Positions 7,039 through 29,228 of a DNA stretch of 64,000 nucleotides are shown piece after piece. The DNA is from Bifidobacterium sp. ESL0732 (GTDB taxonomy: Bacteria > Actinomycetota > Actinomycetes > Actinomycetales > Bifidobacteriaceae), in NCBI RefSeq assembly GCF_029395535.1, contig NZ_CP113920.1, forward strand, positions 434,001 through 498,000, given 5' to 3'. Both the position numbers and the translations under genes were made by a program. Below the pieces are notes generated by a model. That model searched no databases and was not told the origin of the DNA. It was given only the letters and a program-made list of their open reading frames with translations. The first letter of the stretch is position 1, and each line of letters starts with the position of its first letter.

Positions 7039-8649
7039 ATGGGCATCACTCCGATTTGGCCGGAAGCGACGGCGTTCGATAAAGATGGCGAACTGACGTT
7101 CCACGGGCACAGTGCCGCGTCGTTGCTGGACGAGTTCGGTTCGCCGCTTTACCTGATCGATACCGACGAAGTGCGCGTTCGCGCCAAAAAGTTCGTCGCT
7201 GCCGCCGCGAAAGCCTTCAATACCAACACCACTCACGTCAGCTTTGCGGGCAAGGCGTTCCTTTCCAAGGAGATTGTGCGCATCGTCACGCAGGCTGGTA
7301 TGCACGTCGACACCTGTTCGATGGGGGAGATCAAGATTGCGCTCGCCGCAGGCGCTTCGGGTCGCAGGCTTGTGCTGCACGGCAACAACAAATCCGACGA
7401 AGAAATCGAACTGGCGATCAAAGAGGGCTTTTCAAAGATTGTCGTCGATTCGCCTGACGAGCCTGCTCGCATCGCCGCCATCGCGCATCGTCTGGGCAAA
7501 CGTGCCCGCGTCATGCTGCGCGTCACCTCTGGCATCCACGCCGGCGGCCACGAATATATTTCCACCGCGCACGAGGACCAGAAATTCGGTGTGCCTCTTC
7601 TACCGGCCGGTGTCGGTGCGGGAATACTTGATATTCTAGGCAAACTTGGCAATGAAAAAAGCAAGTCGGGAGATGGGGTTGCTAGTGATTCGGCTTCTTC
7701 AGCCTCGGCGAATACCCCGTACAAGCCCAAGCTCGATTATTCCGTCAAATATCCTTACGATACCAGCCATGTCAAGGTTTCTGAGGAGGAACGTGAACTG
7801 GCCGAGGCCATGAACGCCGTGGCGGACGGGCCGGCGCTCGCCGTGCTCAAGGATATTTACAAACGTCAGGAAGACCTCGAGCTCGTCGGCATCCATTCTC
7901 ATATTGGCTCGCAGATTCACGACGCGAATGCCTTTATCGAAGCCGCACGGCGTATGATGTTGCTGCGCAAGACCTTCTACGCCACCGATGCCTACACGAT
8001 GCCCGAGGTCGACTTGGGCGGTGGCTATTCCGTGGCCTACACCGATGCCGAGGATTCCATGGACATCGACGCCGAGCTCGGCCGACTCGCGCAGGCCGTC
8101 ACCTCGATCAACAAGGCGCTTGGCATGCCGGCTCCCGTCATTTCCTTCGAACCCGGCCGCTGGATCGTCGCGCCCGCAGGCGTCACGTTGTATCGCGTCG
8201 GCACCATCAAGCGCGTTGCGCTTCCGGAAGGCACGAAAGACAGTGCCGGCAACCCAATCAACGAACGCACCTATGTTTCGGTCGACGGCGGCATGAGCGA
8301 CAACATCCGTCCGGCGCTTTATGGTGCGGATTATACGGCCTTGCTCGCCAACCGCGATTGCGGCGGTGCGAAAGACGAAAACGGCAATCTCAAGGATTCC
8401 ATGCTCGCCCGCGTGGTCGGCATGCACTGCGAATCTGGCGATATCCTCGTCCACGAATGTCGCTTGCCACGTGATCTCAAGCGCGGCGATATCCTCGCCG
8501 TTCCGGTCACAGGAGCCTACGGCCGCACGATGGCCAGCAATTACAACCAGGCGCTCATCCCTGCCGTGGTCGCTGTCAGCGATAAAGACGCCCATCTCAT
8601 GATGCGCCGCCAAACTATCGACGACCTGCTCGACCTCGATGTGAGCTGA
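7039..8649 (+). CDS. lysA: Diaminopimelate decarboxylase
   Basis: PLP enzyme of fold type III that decarboxylates meso-diaminopimelate to L-lysine, the last lysine step. The PLP lysine lies in HVSFAGKAF. Also visible are HSHIGSQI, the glycine loop DLGGGYSVAY, the EPGRWIVAPAG segment and the active-site CESGD followed by the ending conserved in LysA. A Ser/Lys-rich insertion (about residues 200-250) between two barrel segments makes it longer than usual (536 residues). The ATG at 7039 is preferred over the GTG at 7012 because AGAGG lies 6-7 bases before it and the family starts near MGITPIWP. It precedes hom and thrB, all aspartate-family genes, but a repeat array separates it from hom. Confidence 0.96.
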   Translation: MGITPIWPEATAFDKDGELTFHGHSAASLLDEFGSPLYLIDTDEVRVRAKKFVAAAAKAFNTNTTHVSFAGKAFLSKEIVRIVTQAGMHVDTCSMGEIKIALAAGASGRRLVLHGNNKSDEEIELAIKEGFSKIVVDSPDEPARIAAIAHRLGKRARVMLRVTSGIHAGGHEYISTAHEDQKFGVPLLPAGVGAGILDILGKLGNEKSKSGDGVASDSASSASANTPYKPKLDYSVKYPYDTSHVKVSEEERELAEAMNAVADGPALAVLKDIYKRQEDLELVGIHSHIGSQIHDANAFIEAARRMMLLRKTFYATDAYTMPEVDLGGGYSVAYTDAEDSMDIDAELGRLAQAVTSINKALGMPAPVISFEPGRWIVAPAGVTLYRVGTIKRVALPEGTKDSAGNPINERTYVSVDGGMSDNIRPALYGADYTALLANRDCGGAKDENGNLKDSMLARVVGMHCESGDILVHECRLPRDLKRGDILAVPVTGAYGRTMASNYNQALIPAVVAVSDKDAHLMMRRQTIDDLLDLDVS

Positions 8650-8696: not shown

Positions 8697-8857
8697 GACC
8701 CTTTTCTTGCATTTGAGGTTTGAGATGCAAGAAATCGCCCATTTAGCGACGCTCAGTGACCCTTTTCTTGCACGGGGAAGCAAAGATGCAAGAAATCGCC
8801 CATTTAGCGACGCTCAGTGTACCCTTTTCTTGCATGAGCAGTTCTGAAAGCAAGAAA
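8697..8857 (+). repeat. 61-bp-period palindromic repeat array between lysA and hom
   Basis: Two full 61-bp units (8697-8757, 8758-8818) and a degraded third. Each joins CCCTTTTCTTGCA, a variable 14-bp segment and TGCAAGAAATCGCCC. The conserved block running from TGCAAGA to the next TCTTGCA is 47 bp long and ends in inverted arms. The rest of the 8650-9015 gap shows no gene. Confidence 0.85.
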
Positions 8858-17282: not shown

Positions 17283-17332
17283 AGCCTTATTACCTTTATT
17301 TTGTTCCCGTCATTGTTCCGTTTGAACCAATG

Positions 17333-17530
17333 TTGGCGCGCCAAGAAGCCCATAAAACAGGAAATAGATGTGAAATCTTCATTTTCCGGACTTCTTGGCG
17401 CGCCAAGAACCCCAAAATTTAAAGATATGATTGTAATTCTTCAATTTTCAGGCCTCTTGGCGCACCAAGAGGGCCATTTTTGCCGAAATTAAGATGATAT
17501 TTCCTTATTTCGGGCTTCTTGGCGCGCCAA
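17333..17530. repeat. 62-bp-period palindrome array after dapE (4 copies)
   Basis: The dyad TTGGCGCGCCAA (third copy TTGGCGCACCAA) starts at 17333, 17395, 17457 and 17519: exactly 62 bp each time. In copies 2-4 it extends to 14-18 bp (CTTCTTGG..CCAAGAA type). The intervening segments are not identical but share an AT-rich TTC-ATTTTC-like stretch before the next palindrome. The remainder of 17283-17768 contains the rne leader and no gene. Confidence 0.9.
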
Positions 17531-17768
17531 GACGATCGGTTTGGCTTTCTTTTTGCATACGTTGACGTATACTGAAGGTTGGTAATTCTGCAAGTTGCCG
17601 AATTCCGATGGCGTTGATCCCCTCGCGTGCTAATCCGCGGGTGCCGGTGTCCGCTGTCTGAACGTAATGACTTTTAGATTGCCGGCTACGAGCGCAAGTG
17701 TTGCGTGGCCGCGGTGAGAGCGCGGCGTGAGAGTCGTAGACGGCCAGATAAGCCGACATGATTGCAGC

Positions 17769-21974: not shown

Positions 21975-23666
21975 ATGACAGACTTTGTAGATAGAGTGAC
22001 CGTCCATGTCAAGGGCGGGGACGGCGGCAATGGGTCCGCAGGCGTGAAGCGCGAAAAATACAAGCCCTTGGCCGGGCCGAACGGCGGCAATGGCGGGGAT
22101 GGCGGTTCAGTCATCTTCGTGGCCGACGCCAATGCCAACAACTTGCTTGATTATCGTTTCGTCCCGCACCGCAAAGCCGAAAGCGGCACGATGGGCCTGG
22201 GCGACACCAAAGACGGCTCGAAAGGCGCCGACGTGGTGCTGCCGGTTCCGCCGGGAACCGTGATTTTCGAAGCCAAAGGTGCGCAGGGCAAGGCCAAGCA
22301 CCCCGGTCGTGAGCTGGCTGATCTGCGTCATGCCGGTGACCGGTTCGTCGCCGCTGCGGGCGGCATGGGTGGTTTGGGCAACGCCGCGCTGGCCAACAAG
22401 ACACGCCGTGCTCCCGGATTTGCGCTGCTTGGCGAACCGGGCGAGGAACGCGACGTGATCCTTGAACTTAAGTCCATCGCCGACGTGGCATTGGTCGGTT
22501 TCCCGTCGGCCGGCAAGTCGAGCCTGATTGCCGCGATGAGCGCCGCAAAGCCGAAAATCGCCGATTATCCGTTCACTACGCTTGTGCCGAACCTCGGCGT
22601 GGTGAAGCTTGAGGAATACCGCTATACCATTGCCGACGTGCCGGGGCTCATTCCTGGGGCTTCGGAAGGCAAGGGACTAGGCCTCGAGTTCCTGCGCCAT
22701 ATCGAACGCACCGAAATCATCGCCCACGTCATCGATTGCGCCACGTTGGAGCCGGATCGCGATCCGATTTCCGACTATCACGCGCTGGAAGACGAGTTGG
22801 CGAAGTACGCCGCGAAGCTCAAGCTGCCGCTCGGCGTCATCCCGATTCCCGAACGCCCGCGCGTCATTATCCTCAATAAGGCCGACGTGCCCGAAGCCAA
22901 GGAATTAGCCGAATTTGTGCGTCCCGAGTTCGTTAGTATGGGACTCAAGACCTTCATTGTCTCGACGGCCTCGCATGAGGGCCTGAAGGAACTCGGCTTC
23001 GCCTTGGGCAAGATGGTTACCGAACTGCGCGCGAAATTAGCTAAAGAAGAAGCCGATCGCGACGAGGAGCGCGTGGTCATTAAGCCGTTGGAGCAGCCGG
23101 CGCGTCGTCGCCGTCGTGCCGATGATGAACGTGGCACTTCGCTCGACTTCCATGTCGAGCGTGAAAGCAACCGTAGGGGAGCGGTGTGGTTCACCGTCAC
23201 CGGTGCGAAGCCGGAGCGTTGGGTGCGTCAGACCAATTTCGACAACGACGAGGCCGTGGGCTATCTTGCCGACCGTCTGGCCGGTTTGGGTGTCGAGGAC
23301 GAATTGCGTCGCCACGGCGCCAAGCCCGGTGATGAAGTGCGTATCGGCAAGGGCGAGAACATGGTCGCCTTCGATTGGGACCCGACCATCGCCGCCGGTG
23401 CGGAAATGCTGGATGGCGCCCAATTGGGTGCCCGCGGCAAGGATCTGCGTCTGGACGACGGAGCCGACGGCAACCGTGTCCGTCGTCGTACCAACGCCGA
23501 ACGCCGTCGCCAGTATCACGAAATGATGGATGCCAAAACCGCTGTACGCGAGGCGATGCGTCAGGAACGCACGGCAGGTCACTGGGCTGATCCGAGCGTC
23601 GACGACGACCGTCATGACGAGCACGCGATTCTTGGCGGTCACGACGACGGCGAGGACGAAGAGTGA
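21975..23666 (+). CDS. obgE: Obg/CgtA ribosome-assembly GTPase
   Basis: Large-subunit assembly and stringent-response GTPase. The N-terminal glycine-rich Obg fold ([20 protein letters not shown], residues 1-160) precedes the G domain. That has P-loop GFPSAGKSS, switch [11 protein letters not shown]3 DVPGLI, G4 NKAD and G5 STASHEG. A C-terminal OCT domain follows, around residues 390-480 ([19 protein letters not shown] and [21 protein letters not shown]). The last 80 residues are an extra polar tail rich in Arg, Asp and Glu with a HDEH-type end, as in actinobacterial Obg. It starts with ATG after AAGGAA. Confidence 0.97.
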
Positions 23667-23915
23667 TTGCAAGCAGTCGTCTGATTTCCTTGCAAGCGTC
23701 GTGTGCCATCTGCCTGTGCCGAGGAGGTTTTGACAGTCAAGGGCAGCTGAAGTCGTGAGGTTTGCGTACCGGATTCTGGCAGGGAAACGGCCACGCGGAG
23801 TCTGCCTTGCTCATGGCGTATCTTTGACGTTGGAATTCGGCGGTGGCCTGACCACTACAACGGGAGGCCGTCGCAATCAAGGGCAATATAGAACAAAACG
23901 AGGCGAACAACGCAG

Positions 23916-25052
23916 ATGAGCAACAGTGAGACCGAATCCCAGGTGCGTCAGGACGTGGCATCCGCCCATACCGTCGTGGTAAAAGTCGGTTCCAGCTCAT
24001 TGACCAAGCCTTCCGGCCATTTAGACACGGATAAAGTCGGCGCGCTGGTTGAGGTCTTGGCACAAGCAGCTAAAAACGGCACCCGCATGGTATTGGTATC
24101 ATCCGGTGCTATCGCCGCCGGTTTTGGCCCGCTCGGTTTCGATGCGAGGCCGGCAGACGTTTCGACTCAACAGGCCGCGGCGTCGGTGGGTCAGGGCGTG
24201 CTGATGCAGCATTACGAGACCGGTTTCGCGCGTTATGGCGTGCGTGTCGGCCAGATTCTCTTGACCGCGGACGACACGATGCACGCTTCGCGCTATCGCA
24301 ATGCCCAACGGACGTTGCGCAGGCTGCTTGACCTCGGCGTGGTCCCCATTGTCAATGAAAACGACGCGTTGGCCACCAACGAGATTCGCTTCGGTGACAA
24401 CGACCACCTTTCCACTCTGGTGGCCAATCTGGTACGCGCCGATGCGCTGGTGCTCCTGACCGACGTCGACGGTCTTTACACCGCTCCACCCTCAAAACCA
24501 GGCGCTCGACGTGTCGGTTTTGTGCCAGATGTCGACGAAGTTCTGGATAAAATTTCAGTAGGCGGCAGTTCGTCGGGTGTCGGCAGCGGCGGCATGGTCA
24601 CCAAGCTCGAGGCGGCGCGTATAGCAGTCACTTCCGGCATTCCCGTGGTGCTGACCAGCGCCGGTAACATTGCCGGAGCCCTGAACGGCGAGCCCACGGG
24701 CACGGCTTTCGCTCCATCGCAACACCGTGATTCCTCTCGCCGCCTGTGGATCGGTTTTGCCGCGAACCCTCGCGGAAGGCTGGTCGGCGACAAAGGTGCG
24801 ATCAAGGCGGTGCTCGGCGGCAAGGCCAGTCTGTTGGCGGCCGGCGTGCTTGAGGTGCACGGCGAGTTTTGTGCCGGCGATCCCGTCTGGATCGACGACG
24901 AAGACGGTAACCACGTCGCCAAAGGCCTCTCGAGTTTCGATTCCGACGAGATTCCCCACACCCTCGGCCGCGACACATCCCAGCTCAAGCGTCTGCTTGG
25001 CGAGGAATACGCCCATCCGCTCGTCCACCGCGACAATCTGGTGCTGCTATAG
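23916..25052 (+). CDS. proB: Glutamate 5-kinase
   Basis: Phosphorylates glutamate to start proline synthesis. The amino-acid kinase domain (residues about 15-270) shows VVVKVGSSSLT, LVSSGAIAAGF, VVPIVNENDALATNEIRFGDND, LLTDVDGLY and GSGGMVTKLEAARIAVTSGI. A C-terminal PUA domain (about 285-370) has KGAIKAVLGGKASLLAAGV. 378 residues is the full-length, PUA-containing type. No proA is adjacent in the window. It is followed by the 61-bp repeat array. Confidence 0.96.
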   Translation: MSNSETESQVRQDVASAHTVVVKVGSSSLTKPSGHLDTDKVGALVEVLAQAAKNGTRMVLVSSGAIAAGFGPLGFDARPADVSTQQAAASVGQGVLMQHYETGFARYGVRVGQILLTADDTMHASRYRNAQRTLRRLLDLGVVPIVNENDALATNEIRFGDNDHLSTLVANLVRADALVLLTDVDGLYTAPPSKPGARRVGFVPDVDEVLDKISVGGSSSGVGSGGMVTKLEAARIAVTSGIPVVLTSAGNIAGALNGEPTGTAFAPSQHRDSSRRLWIGFAANPRGRLVGDKGAIKAVLGGKASLLAAGVLEVHGEFCAGDPVWIDDEDGNHVAKGLSSFDSDEIPHTLGRDTSQLKRLLGEEYAHPLVHRDNLVLL

Positions 25053-25091
25053 ACCAGAAACCAATTCCGCCAGCTGGCCGCCAGCCAATTA

Positions 25092-25382
25092 TGCAAGAAA
25101 CGTACCGCTGGGAGTATGCCAGTGGCTTGAATCTTGCATGGCGTGTTAGCTGTGCAAGAAATGTACCGCTGAGTGTGTGTCAGTGGCTTGAATCTTGCAT
25201 GGCGTGTTAGCTGTGCAAGAAATGTACCGCTGAGTGTGTGTCAGTGGCTTGAATCTTGCATGGCGTGTTAGCTGTGCAAGAAATGTACCGCTGAGTGTGT
25301 GTCAGTGGCTTAAGTCTTGCATGGCGTGATGATGGTGCAAGAAATGTAGCGTTGGGATGGCGTCAGTGACCCATTCCTTGCA
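25092..25382. repeat. 61-bp-period palindromic repeat array after proB (5 units)
   Basis: TGCAAGAAA starts at 25092, 25153, 25214, 25275 and 25336: exactly 61 bp apart. Each unit is a 47-bp block running from TGCAAGAAA to TCTTGCA (fifth copy CCTTGCA), with a second inner pair CCGCTGA/TCAGTGG, plus a 14-bp spacer. Units 2-4 are nearly identical; 1 and 5 are more diverged, as expected for an array growing from the middle. The rest of 25053-25496 has no gene. Confidence 0.93.
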
Positions 25383-25496
25383 CAATTATTGGCCCGGCGA
25401 TGTTGCGCATTCCGTTATATGCCCATCTGCCTTGCCAATTCGTCACTGCGGTCTAATCTTAAGTTGGTAATTGCCAGCAAGATGCGGGAGACGAAA

Positions 25497-26702
25497 ATGG
25501 CAGAGTGGCAGACGTTGAGTGATCGTGTGAATTCCGTGGCGCCGAGCGCCACCCTGGCCGTGGATTCCAAGGCGAAGGCGATGAAAGCCGCGGGCGTCAA
25601 TGTCATCAGTTACGGCGCCGGCGAACCCAATTTCCCGACTCCTGATTACATCGTCGAGGCGGCGGCCACGGCGTGTCGCGATCCGAAAAACCACCGTTAC
25701 ACCCCGACGCCAGGGCTGCCGAAGCTTCGCCGGGCCATCGCCGAAAAAACGTTGCGCGACTCCGGCTACGAGATTTCGCCGGATCAGGTCGTGGTGACCA
25801 ACGGCGGTAAGCAGGCCGTGTACGAAGCGCTTCAGGTCATTGTCAATCCCGGTGACGAAGTCATTATTCCCGCCCCCTACTGGACCACCTATCCCGAGGC
25901 CGTTCGACTTGCCGGTGGCAAGCCCGTCATCGTTTTCAGCGGTGCAGAGAATGGCTTCGAGCCGACCGTCGAAGCGTTTGAGGCCGCGCGCACGCCACGC
26001 ACCAAAGCCATCTTCATCAACACTCCCTCGAATCCGACCGGAGCGGTTTTCAGCGAAGAAACGTTGCGTGCCGTAGGGCTGTGGGCCTTGGAACATCACG
26101 TATGGATCCTGAGCGACGAAATCTACGAACATCTTACGTATGACGGCGAGAAGACCGCATACATCGGTGCCGTCGTGCCGGAAGTGCGCGACCAGCTCAT
26201 CGTCCTGAACGGCGTGGCCAAGACCTACGCCATGACCGGTTGGCGCGTCGGCTGGCTTATCGGCTCCGTGCCGGTGGCCAAGGCCGCCGCCAAACTGCAG
26301 GGCCATATGACCTCCAACGTTGCCGACGTGTGCCAGCAGGCCGCGTACACGGCGGTTTCCGGCTCGCTCGACGCGGTGGCGATGATGCGCAAGTCGTTCG
26401 ACAAGCGCCGCAAAGCCATCGTCGCCGGCCTCAACGCGGTAAACGGCGTCACCTGCCGTGCCGCTAAAGGTGCGTTCTATGCTTTCGCCGATGTCACCGC
26501 CTTGCTGAACCGTCCAATCGGCAACGCCGGAAAGACGGCCAAAAATTCCTCTGAACTGGCCGCGTTGTTGCTCGATGAAGGTCATGTTGCCGCAGTGCCT
26601 GGAGAAGCATTCGGCGCGCCCGGTTTCCTGCGTTTCTCGTACGCACTCGCCGACGATGATCTGGTCGAAGGCATGCGTCGTTTCAAGCAATGGGTCGGCT
26701 GA
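25497..26702 (+). CDS. aspC: Aspartate aminotransferase (class I PLP aminotransferase)
   Basis: 401 residues of the class I fold. Visible: [19 protein letters not shown], the [15 protein letters not shown] segment, [26 protein letters not shown], the PLP-ring Asn and Asp region [14 protein letters not shown] and [13 protein letters not shown], the Schiff-base lysine in [17 protein letters not shown] and the substrate-binding Arg near FLRFSYA. This is the Ib-type bacterial enzyme that interconverts aspartate and oxaloacetate. The ATG at 25497 begins [11 protein letters not shown] after a GGGAGAC site; the frame stays open to 25389 across repeat-flanking sequence that is not protein-like. Confidence 0.93.
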
Positions 26703-26842
26703 AACCATAGGCTGGGGCAAAGCGAGAGAAGCGGAAAATCTGAGCTTTTAGTCTGTTGGCGTCCCCGCCGATTACCCTATCGCGGTTTGTGCAGCCTCCT
26801 CTTCCGGATGTTTCGGTGTAAGATTTGTTGTTTTTTGGGAGT

Positions 26843-26980
26843 CTTGGTGCACCAAGTGGCTCGTTTTTGTGGGATTTGGTGGTGATTCTTCTGTTTTTGG
26901 GGGTCTTGGTGCGCCAAGTGGCTTGTTTTTGTAAGAATTGGTAGTGATTCTTTCATTTTTGGGTCGCTTGGTGCACCAAG
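26843..26980. repeat. 62-bp-period palindrome array after aspC (3 copies)
   Basis: The dyad CTTGGTGCACCAAG (middle copy CTTGGTGCGCCAAG) starts at 26843, 26905 and 26967: exactly 62 bp each time. The first two spacers share TGG-GTGATTCTT and a T/G-rich run before the next palindrome. Same family as the array after dapE. No gene is seen elsewhere in 26703-27182. Confidence 0.9.
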
Positions 26981-27182
26981 ACCCCCGATTTTGGCGGATT
27001 TGATCATGAAGTTTCCGGCAACTATGACAAACAATAATTGAGCAGCCTCTATCTACTTAAGGTACCGTCGGCTTCACCGCGACACGTGGAGTGGACGAAA
27101 CCACGAAAAGAGGCTAAACTATTTCCTCGGCGGTTTATGTCGCATGGTCTCGTGCTTCGAGTATCGTGGACAGAGTTCACCT

Positions 27183-27258
27183 AGGGAAGTGGCGCAATTG
27201 GTAGCGCAACGGTCTCCAAAACCGTAGGTTGTGGGTTCGAGTCCCGCCTTCCCTGCCA
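27183..27258 (+). tRNA. tRNA-Trp (anticodon CCA)
   Basis: Acceptor AGGGAAG/CTTCCCT, D arm with GGCGCAATTGGTAGCGC, anticodon loop CTCCAAA (CCA), T loop TTCGAGT, discriminator G and an encoded CCA tail (27256-27258). Position just before secE is conserved in bifidobacteria. Confidence 0.95.
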
Positions 27259-27287
27259 AGTAATCACAAGCCAAACGAAGGACGGAT

Positions 27288-27515
27288 ATGGCGAAGGCAC
27301 ACGAGTCTGAAGAGAGCGTCAAGCCGAATATTTTCATGCGTATCGGCTTGTTTATTAAGCAGGTTATCGACGAGTTGCGTAAGGTCGTCACCCCGAGCGC
27401 CAAGGAACTAGCCGGTTGGTCCGTTGCGGTGTTTCTTTTTGTGGTCATTCTGATGGCGCTTGTTTCGGGTATGGACTTCGGCCTTGGCAAGCTGACTCTT
27501 TGGATCTTCGGCTGA
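27288..27515 (+). CDS. secE: Preprotein translocase subunit SecE
   Basis: 75 residues: a basic amphipathic segment (FIKQVIDELRKVVTPSAKEL) followed by one membrane helix (WSVAVFLFVVILMALVSGM) and a short outer tail. This is the single-helix SecE of Gram-positives that clamps SecY. A ribosome site AAGGACGG precedes the ATG. Between tRNA-Trp and nusG, 30 bases from nusG, in the conserved order. Confidence 0.95.
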   Translation: MAKAHESEESVKPNIFMRIGLFIKQVIDELRKVVTPSAKELAGWSVAVFLFVVILMALVSGMDFGLGKLTLWIFG

Positions 27516-27545
27516 GCATAAACGATTTTAAAGGTGACTAACAGT

Positions 27546-28439
27546 ATGGATAATGAAGTAAATCTCGAGGGCTTGGACTCGTTGCCCGATTTGCCGGATG
27601 ATGATCAGACCGGAACTGCGGCTTCCAGTGCCGATAATGCGGCTGTTGATGCCGTTGCGGGTATCGAGAACGCAGGTACGTCAAATAAGGCTTCCGATGA
27701 TTCTGCGAATACTGCTTCCGCTGAGGATTCTCAGGTGGCTGAAAATACAGACAAAAGCGCCGCTGACTCGGCTGATGCCAATACCGGCGCAACCGCCGAT
27801 GATGCTGCAGAAAACGTCGAAGATGCTGGTGCCAAGGCCGTGGAGGAATTTTCCAAGAGTCTGCGTGGTCTGGACGGTAAGTGGTATGTGCTCCATACTT
27901 ATTCCGGCTACGAAAAGCGCGTGAAGGCCAACGTCGAATCCCGTATTCAGAGCTACGGCCTCGAAGACCAGATCTTCCAAATCGAAGTGCCGATGGAAGA
28001 GGTCGAAAAGCATACCGATAAGGGCAAGAAGGTTGTCACCCGTGTGCGTGTGCCAGGCTATGTGCTCATTCGTATGTGGCCTGACGAGAACGCTCGCCGT
28101 ATCGTCCGTGAGACGGAAGGTGTCACCGGTTTCGTAGGTCCCACCAAGGAGCCGGCACCGCTGAGCCGCAAGGAAGTCGTCAAGATGATGGCTCCGATGA
28201 TTGCTTCCCAGGCATTGAAGGAAGCGGGTGACAAGCCTGCCGCAGCCAAGAAGCGCACTGTCGAGGTATCGTACAAGGTCGGTGATCAGGTCACCGTCAT
28301 CGACGGCCCATTCGCCACGATGGCCGGCGCGGTTTCCGACGTCGAGCCCACCACGCAGAAGCTCACCGTCCTGGTCTCCATCTTTGGCCGCGATACACCG
28401 GTCGAGCTTGGTTTCAGCCAGGTCGAAAAGATCGTCTGA
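27546..28439 (+). CDS. nusG: Transcription elongation/antitermination factor NusG
   Basis: An acidic Ala/Asp/Ser-rich disordered N-terminal extension of about 105 residues, common in actinobacterial NusG, precedes the NGN domain. That domain carries [35 protein letters not shown] and TGFVGP. A C-terminal KOW domain follows ([22 protein letters not shown]). It binds RNA polymerase and couples to Rho or ribosomal S10. ATG 27546 is chosen over GTG 27534 because AAAGGTG lies 8 bases before it. 30 bases after secE, so co-transcribed. Confidence 0.96.
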
Positions 28440-28463
28440 TTTCGTTTCGTTTGGTTCTTTAAT

Positions 28464-28499
28464 AACGGTGCCGCAGTCCCCAAGGTCTGCGGCACCGTT
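28464..28499 (+). terminator. Hairpin after nusG
   Basis: AACGGTGCCGCAG / CTGCGGCACCGTT, a perfect 13-bp stem 24 bases after the nusG stop. The following T-run is weak. Confidence 0.75.
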
Positions 28500-28799
28500 C
28501 GTATCAGTGTCATTGTTGCTGATTTGAGCGATAATGATTGCCGAATGAGCACTATTATTGTCGTGCTTACTTGGAATAATAGAAAGGCTTGTGTCTGGAG
28601 GGGAGACCCGCTAGCACAGCACAGCAATATCAGTTGCGGGAGGAGACCCGTGACACTTGATATACCAACGGTTTATGGGTGGTTCAGTTGGTTGCTTATC
28701 GCAAGATGACAATGAACGGAAACGACTGAAACCTGATATATCGCAAGGTGTCGTGGGCGACCGTCATTACCGCACGGACAATGAAAAGGAGCCATTTCT
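28500..28799 (+). promoter_or_regulatory. rplK-rplA leader region
   Basis: No gene seen. Two similar purine blocks, GGAGGGGAGACCCG (28597-28610) and GGGAGGAGACCCG (28638-28650), lie about 200 and 160 bases before rplK. L1 is known in other bacteria to repress its own operon by binding the leader mRNA. Whether these blocks form such a site is only a guess. Confidence 0.35.
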
Positions 28800-29228
28800 A
28801 TGGCTAAGAAAAAGGTCACTGCGCTGATCAAGCTGCAGATCGAGGCCGGCAAGGCCAATCCTGCCCCGCCGCTCGGTCCTGCCCTCGGTTCGCACGGCGT
28901 CAACATCATGGACTTCTGCAAGTCCTACAACGAAGCGACGAAAGACAAGATGGGACAGGTCATCCCTGTCGAAATCACTGTCTATGAAGATCGCTCGTTC
29001 GATTACATCCTTAAGACCCCGCCGGCCGCAGCGCTTCTGCTCAAGGCCGCAGGTATCAAGAAGGGCACCGACAACCCGCTGACTCACAAGGTCGGTTCCG
29101 TCACCTCGGCTCAGGTCCGTGAGATCGCCGAGACCAAGATGGCCGATCTGTCCGCTCGCGACGTCGAGGCCGGAATGAAGATCATCGCGGGCACCGCCCG
29201 TTCGATGGGCATCACGGTCGAAGGCTGA
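28800..29228 (+). CDS. rplK: 50S ribosomal protein L11
   Basis: 142 residues, full length. Starts [20 protein letters not shown], followed by [20 protein letters not shown], the proline-rich hinge region typical of L11. The C-terminal RNA-binding half has [18 protein letters not shown] and ends with the conserved [16 protein letters not shown]. It builds the GTPase-associated centre with 23S rRNA. Ribosome site AAAAGGAG. 13 bases separate it from rplA. Confidence 0.98.

Follow-up and report, generated by a model that had tools for sequence, protein, structure and literature searches.

The palindromic array downstream of proB in this Bifidobacterium is one of 20 arrays of a single family (family A) in the genome. 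With the 25 loci of a second family (family B), these make up about 45 regularly built arrays in the chromosome. The arrays consist of dyads set at gaps of fixed length, their arms do not covary, and, with some exceptions, they are scarce in the terminus third of this chromosome. Judging from these sequence patterns, we read them as protein-docking arrays on duplex DNA for an oligomeric protein, with a probability of roughly 55%. The best-supported part of this reading, namely that the arrays are bound as duplex DNA, is likely; suggestions on what they do are much more tentative and are discussed below.

The array downstream of proB

The window (the whole stretch of 64,000 nucleotides analysed here) comes from a genome assembled as a single contig of 2.39 Mb. 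The array occupies positions 25092–25382 of the window and, like the other arrays described below, is assigned no strand. It starts 39 bases after the stop of proB (glutamate 5-kinase; 23916–25052, forward strand; TIGR01027, E = 4.5e-124); from its end, about 115 bases remain to the likely ATG (25497) of the next gene (25497–26702, forward strand, within an open reading frame spanning 25389–26702). The start region of the latter is similar in relatives, and we take the gene, by eye, to be an aspartate/aromatic aminotransferase.

A preliminary description made from the letters of the sequence had claimed five 61-bp units, each with a 47-bp block, separated by 14-bp spacers. This was borne out: the blocks lie at 25092–25138, 25153–25199, 25214–25260, 25275–25321, and 25336–25382. 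Tandem Repeats Finder reports a period of 61 over 25092–25348 (94% matches) and a period of 122 over 25092–25382 (86% matches). The inner units had been described as nearly identical and the outer ones as diverged, which agrees with our comparison: units 2 and 3 are the same across the full 61 bp, unit 4 is the same as both over its first 37 bp, and units 1 and 5 have diverged. The two nested inverted pairs proposed for each block fold as described in units 1–4 (nested hairpins, z −3.7 to −4.1), but unit 5 takes another fold (z −2.4).

Nothing contradicts the earlier view that the array is neither an insertion sequence end, nor a simple terminator, nor a member of a recognised family. A search of Rfam with positions 22000–29000 gave seven listed matches (E up to 5), none overlapping 25092–25382, and the array had no match in the plasmid and phage records searched. 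Nor does it look like a CRISPR: its repeats diverge and its 14-bp spacers are identical where units are duplicated, in place of near-identical repeats and unique spacers of about 30 bp.

At the same place after proB, the relative G087 has three family A units. The two extra units of this genome duplicate the middle one, so the five units are a local expansion of three. Simple local slippage had been named as the reading to adopt if the array were absent from close relatives and other sites. Local duplication does give the copy number of five, but the array is not mere local slippage, because the genome holds 20 family A arrays and 25 family B loci.

Two families of arrays in the chromosome

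The pattern of the 47-bp block recurs at other sites of the genome and in relatives. A DNA similarity search found four further places in the genome, the exact junction pattern of family A occurs at 19 junctions (0 in the reversed control), and a search for its half-site with one mismatch gave 26 forward and 23 reverse sites. The 20 arrays comprise 11 from a first reading and nine from a later one. Besides the proB array, the window has another (8703–8857), flanked by lysA and a homoserine dehydrogenase gene, with three dyads resembling TTTCTTGCA-N14-TGCAAGAAA at 8703, 8764, and 8826.

The building block of family A is a bipartite half-site of 20 bp, TGCAAGAAA-NN-GGYCRYTGA, placed in alternating orientation; the part conserved in 59 distinct half-units is ATGCAAGAAA-NN-GGYCRYTGAG. 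Arrays most commonly have three dyads. Of the first 11 arrays, 7 have this number and the others 2, 2, 4, and 5; six half-sites, equal to three dyads, were read in four of the nine later ones. The lengths of the gaps are strikingly constant: the N7 gap was 7 bp long in 41 out of 41 pairs when 0–14 bp were allowed, and the N14 gap was 14 bp long in 53 out of 55 when 4–24 bp were allowed. The sequence of the 14-bp spacer is almost free, with less than 0.1 bit at 12 of the 14 positions and conservation of the outermost position on each side. At the variable symmetric positions, pairing between the arms does not exceed that of shuffled arms (40 loop units and 52 spacer units; the lowest P at any one position is 0.066). 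The palindromes of the proB array arise from the alternating copies of the bipartite half-site, and the hairpin is best regarded as a side effect of this arrangement, given the lack of covariation between the arms.

Family B is built on the palindrome CTTGGYRCRCCAAG, repeated every 62 bp, of which there are 64 copies in the genome and none in the reversed control. Of its 25 loci, 17 are triplets (15 of them spaced by exactly 62 + 62 bp), five contain two palindromes, and three contain only one. Two arrays of this family, both of period 62, are in the window. The first (17332–17531) has CTTGGYGCRCCAAG at 17394, 17456, and 17518, and a copy with one mismatch at 17332. The second (26843–26980) sits between the putative aminotransferase gene that follows the proB array and a tRNA gene, with palindromes at 26843, 26905, and 26967. 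The arms of family B show no covariation beyond chance (34 inter-centre units and 64 palindromes): 1 of the 31 positions tested has z = 2.6, and several others fall below the expectation. A structured RNA or a single-stranded element should show the opposite, and the lack of arm covariation in both families therefore argues that the arrays are not conserved RNAs or single-strand hairpins. The structured RNA, for which there was no overlapping Rfam match either, was rejected.

The centres of the family B palindromes differ between genomes. Here they are CGCA (21), TGCG (18), CGCG (14), and TGCA (11). In G084 they are TGCA in all 40 readings (20 forward rows, where adjoining rows share palindromes), and in G082 they are CGCG in 28 of 36 and never TGCA (18 forward rows, with the same sharing). 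A centre preference common to numerous separate loci is compatible with a trans-acting protein, but a mutational bias acting on CG steps throughout the genome would have the same outcome.

The two families lie close together more often than expected. Five of the 20 family A arrays are less than 3.5 kb away from a family B array, against 1.4 expected (P = 0.013). The pairs, given as A/B, are 459092/460843, 537588/535982, 877373/875645, 1702782/1705013, and 576283/579475, and in the first three a single gene separates the two arrays.

Arrays in other Bifidobacterium species

The closest named relatives, according to ProB, are Bifidobacterium sp. B-bin1 (93%), ESL0784, ESL0763, ESL0682, and B. 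commune, which together with this Bifidobacterium form a clade of bee-gut dwellers. After proB, B-bin1 has two altered units, and ESL0763 (L046, past position 7122) has one unit whose inner part is that of family A and whose outer arms are a different complementary pair. No units were seen by eye at this place in ESL0784, ESL0682, and B. commune. In B. canis (L053, past 7119), the long stretch that follows proB contains several runs of inverted motifs resembling GATTTGCTGTTTT.

Exact A-type dyads were found in 11 of the 112 genomes of the genus, including this one; those of G029 and G033 look like chance single matches. Four of the 11 genomes (G021, G067, G071, and G097) have the variant TTTCTTGCACTGA-N7-TCAGTGCAAGAAA, mainly within arrays. 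The pair of family B palindromes at 62 bp is present in 6 of the 112 genomes. Five arrays of this genome, chosen by similarity, were matched in G087, two with 92–94% and three with 60–70% ungapped identity, and small shifts are visible in the latter three.

Some species have arrays of similar geometry and different letters. In B. hapali there are 37 dyads of unrelated sequence, GATATTNCGGCGGA-N13-TCCGCCGNAATATC, with a gap of exactly 13 in 35 of them (11–17 allowed). We read five distinct array regions in this species: three contain exactly three dyads, with a period of about 63, and the other two contain more. Complementarity is in excess at one variable position pair (20/35 versus 14.2 expected, P = 0.018). 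B. scaligerum, B. olomucense, and B. stellenboschense have in common the dyad AACGTACRCTGA-N7-TCAGYGTACGTT, whose gap is 7 in 24 out of 24 cases (3–9 allowed); some of these dyads clearly occupy one place in two species, and by eye the arrays are mostly two units at 62 bp. The same pattern was not found in B. jacchi.

We also scanned the window and 80 proB loci for evenly spaced dyads, a search that was dominated by coding DNA under earlier settings. The last setting gave 16 non-coding matches (5 at 30–31.5 bp and 11 at other distances) versus 13 in shuffled DNA, where three were at 30–31 bp, and nothing stood out; 18 further matches at 30–31 bp were inside open frames. This unbiased scan does not show that the spacing plan is general, and the case for generality thus rests on the dyads and array readings of B. 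hapali and of the three species above. Tandem repeats were seen at other loci of Bifidobacteriaceae, with a lag of 61 bp at L073 (10284) and of 52 bp at L083 (2797), L089 (10149), L100 (7122), L105 (7636), and L117 (5496).

Interpretation of the arrays

In the model that we favour, each 61-bp unit would offer two inverted 20-bp half-sites, with gaps alternately of 7 and 14 bp, to an oligomeric sequence-specific protein that we infer to bind with one subunit per half-site. Successive dyad centres, 30.5 bp apart, would be about three helical turns from one another. The intervening sequence is nearly free, its length is fixed, and centres are 30.5 to 31.5 bp apart, which argues that the subunits would line up on one face of the duplex. 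The usual full site would have three dyads. Family B, whose period is 62 bp, and the arrays in other species would serve related or separately evolved proteins sharing this geometry. This model is favoured by the geometry common to family A (61 bp), family B (62 bp), B. hapali (period 63), and the three species with gap 7, by the lack of arm covariation, by five array positions, chosen by similarity, that match between this genome and G087, and by the scarcity of arrays in the terminus third described below. Against it, exact family A or B matches are missing from most of the 112 Bifidobacterium genomes, some arrays do lie near the terminus, one position pair in B. hapali has excess complementarity, and the unbiased dyad scan did not differ from shuffled DNA. 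A search of 57 proteins encoded next to arrays revealed no recurrent candidate for the binding protein: DNA-binding regulators occur only singly (HspR, a RicR-like protein, and a LacI-type protein, one each).

The arrays could instead be ordinary operators of a transcription factor, perhaps one controlling amino-acid biosynthesis. Family A arrays are found near trpD/trpC, lysA and the homoserine dehydrogenase gene, proB, an O-acetylhomoserine sulfhydrylase gene, and ilvC, and family B arrays near leuA, leuB, hisD, and dapB. Amino-acid genes are frequent in the raw listing of the 57 neighbouring proteins. However, there is no clean regulon, because rne (RNase E/G), radA, trmD, thyA, purA, and transporters also adjoin arrays, as does glycerol-3-phosphate dehydrogenase. 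Furthermore, 4 of the 20 family A arrays are between convergent genes, with no gene start following. We regard this explanation as unlikely.

An origin as selfish extragenic repeats (REP, BIME, or REPIN), mobilised by a transposase recognising hairpins in single-stranded DNA, is rather improbable. Like such repeats, the arrays are intergenic and dispersed, with inverted arms and species-specific sequences; the unit was duplicated locally at proB, and half-sites are more numerous here (26 + 23) than in G083, G087, G090, and G084. REPINs can also form ordered tandem clusters (PMC3116915). Yet spread of REPs or REPINs by a Y1 enzyme is unlikely because the Y1 transposase (PF01797) is absent from this genome and found in only 7 of the 112 genomes of the genus, and REP/RAYT transposition was rejected on the former count. 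The absence of arm covariation in either family and several array positions common to different species also speak against it.

A role as transcription terminators or stabilisers of mRNA 3' ends is very unlikely, even if the RNA of the proB array (316 nt) folds better than 100 out of 100 shuffled sequences (z −6.95). We used gene calls based on codon usage to orient the neighbours. In family A, 9 arrays are flanked by genes in ++ orientation, 5 in −−, 4 in +−, and 2 in −+ (n = 20), such that a gene ends towards the array in 18 of 20. The figures for family B are 11 ++, 8 −−, 4 −+, and 2 +− (n = 25), of which the +− at 298603 is doubtful, since the gene call overlaps the array and the other reading is −−. 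Terminators are located after genes, but 2/20 family A and 4/25 family B arrays are between divergent genes. The first 11 arrays pointed to a strict rule placing family A arrays 3' of genes; this did not survive the addition of nine more, two of them divergent. The arms do not covary, and the spacer between hairpins has a fixed length. A look by eye at the proB array showed no T-run 3' of its units.

In core sites of tyrosine recombinases, inverted arms enclose an overlap of 7 bp that is free in sequence, and the arms and free, strictly 7-bp centres of the arrays resemble such sites. A descent from such sites, e.g., as relics of recombinase-in-trio elements, is hardly credible and was rejected, because the genome encodes only two Phage_integrase (PF00589) proteins, at 1585309 and 1595386, 10 kb apart and taken to be the Xer pair, with no trio. 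B. longum is reported to carry mobile integrase cassettes that include a palindrome and an inverted repeat (PMC2430713), but the published sequences differ by eye from families A and B. In viral contigs, the family B pair had no matches and the family A dyad matched 14 stretches, each with one dyad whose gap was 13 bp in four cases, 14 bp in five, and 15 bp in five; leaving their surroundings aside, we read these as chance matches.

Position on the chromosome and possible role

The gene dnaA is at base 890, and the terminus is thus expected near 1.19 Mb. Only 4 of the 45 loci are in the terminus third (2/20 of family A and 2/25 of family B; P = 1.4e-4, post hoc and uncorrected for intergenic content). 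These exceptions are 877373 and 1066018 for family A, and 856628 and 875645 for family B. From the first 36 loci, arrays had seemed fully absent between 877 and 1609 kb; this was refuted by the array at 1066018, which was revealed by the half-site search and is well within the terminus region. For the family B pairs of relatives, which share loci with this genome, the terminus third holds one locus out of 13 in G084 and one out of 14 in G087. Estimates by hand place one of the two exact family A places of G083 (1175029) at about 0.91 of the path from origin to terminus, and one of the four of G090 (889782) at about 0.71.

If the docking reading holds, the arrays may serve, like Noc and SlmA sites, to mark or organise parts of the chromosome distant from the terminus. 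This analogy is our leading guess on function, tentative and unproved. It is doubtful in its more specific form, where an oligomeric protein whose preferred letters change between species would bind the triplets as part of a nucleoid-occlusion or domain-marking system acting mainly off the terminus. The patchy presence of families A and B in the genus is unlike that of a core cell-cycle system, and we know of no Noc or SlmA in this bacterial group. Should the arrays be docking rails of one system, they would belong to a bifidobacterial machine for chromosome organisation or silencing that is, to our knowledge, undescribed; the literature on Bifidobacterium repeats, on the motif letters, and on integrase cassettes contained no description of the arrays among the matches listed, with thin coverage of subscription papers. 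The recognition code would then have shifted between species while the geometry remained constant. The protein could be found by pull-down, and the evolution of protein–DNA recognition could be traced across one genus.

Comparison with known systems

Operators of the Lrp/AsnC type are phased, with several dyads about 31 bp apart, i.e., three helical turns, and resemble the arrays in this spacing. In contrast to them, the half-sites described here are bipartite and about 20 bp or longer, and some family A loci are away from promoter positions. The mobile integrase cassettes and recombinase-in-trio elements share with the arrays the combination of a palindrome and an inverted repeat, as reported in B. 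longum (PMC2430713), but the sequences are others and this genome has two tyrosine recombinases and no trio. REP, BIME, and REPIN sequences are, like the arrays, extragenic, dispersed, inverted, and at times found in ordered clusters (PMC3116915); the arrays differ from them by their fixed spacing, the lack of arm covariation, and the absence of a Y1 transposase in the genome. The sites of Noc and SlmA (NBS and SBS) are dispersed palindromes, present in tens per chromosome and rare near the terminus (PMC4726725). The arrays are likewise dispersed, palindromic, and present in tens, and the post hoc count, with its exceptions, hints at a similar scarcity near the terminus. They are set apart from these sites by having commonly three long dyads, a period of 61–63 bp, an intergenic location, and letters that are specific to each species.
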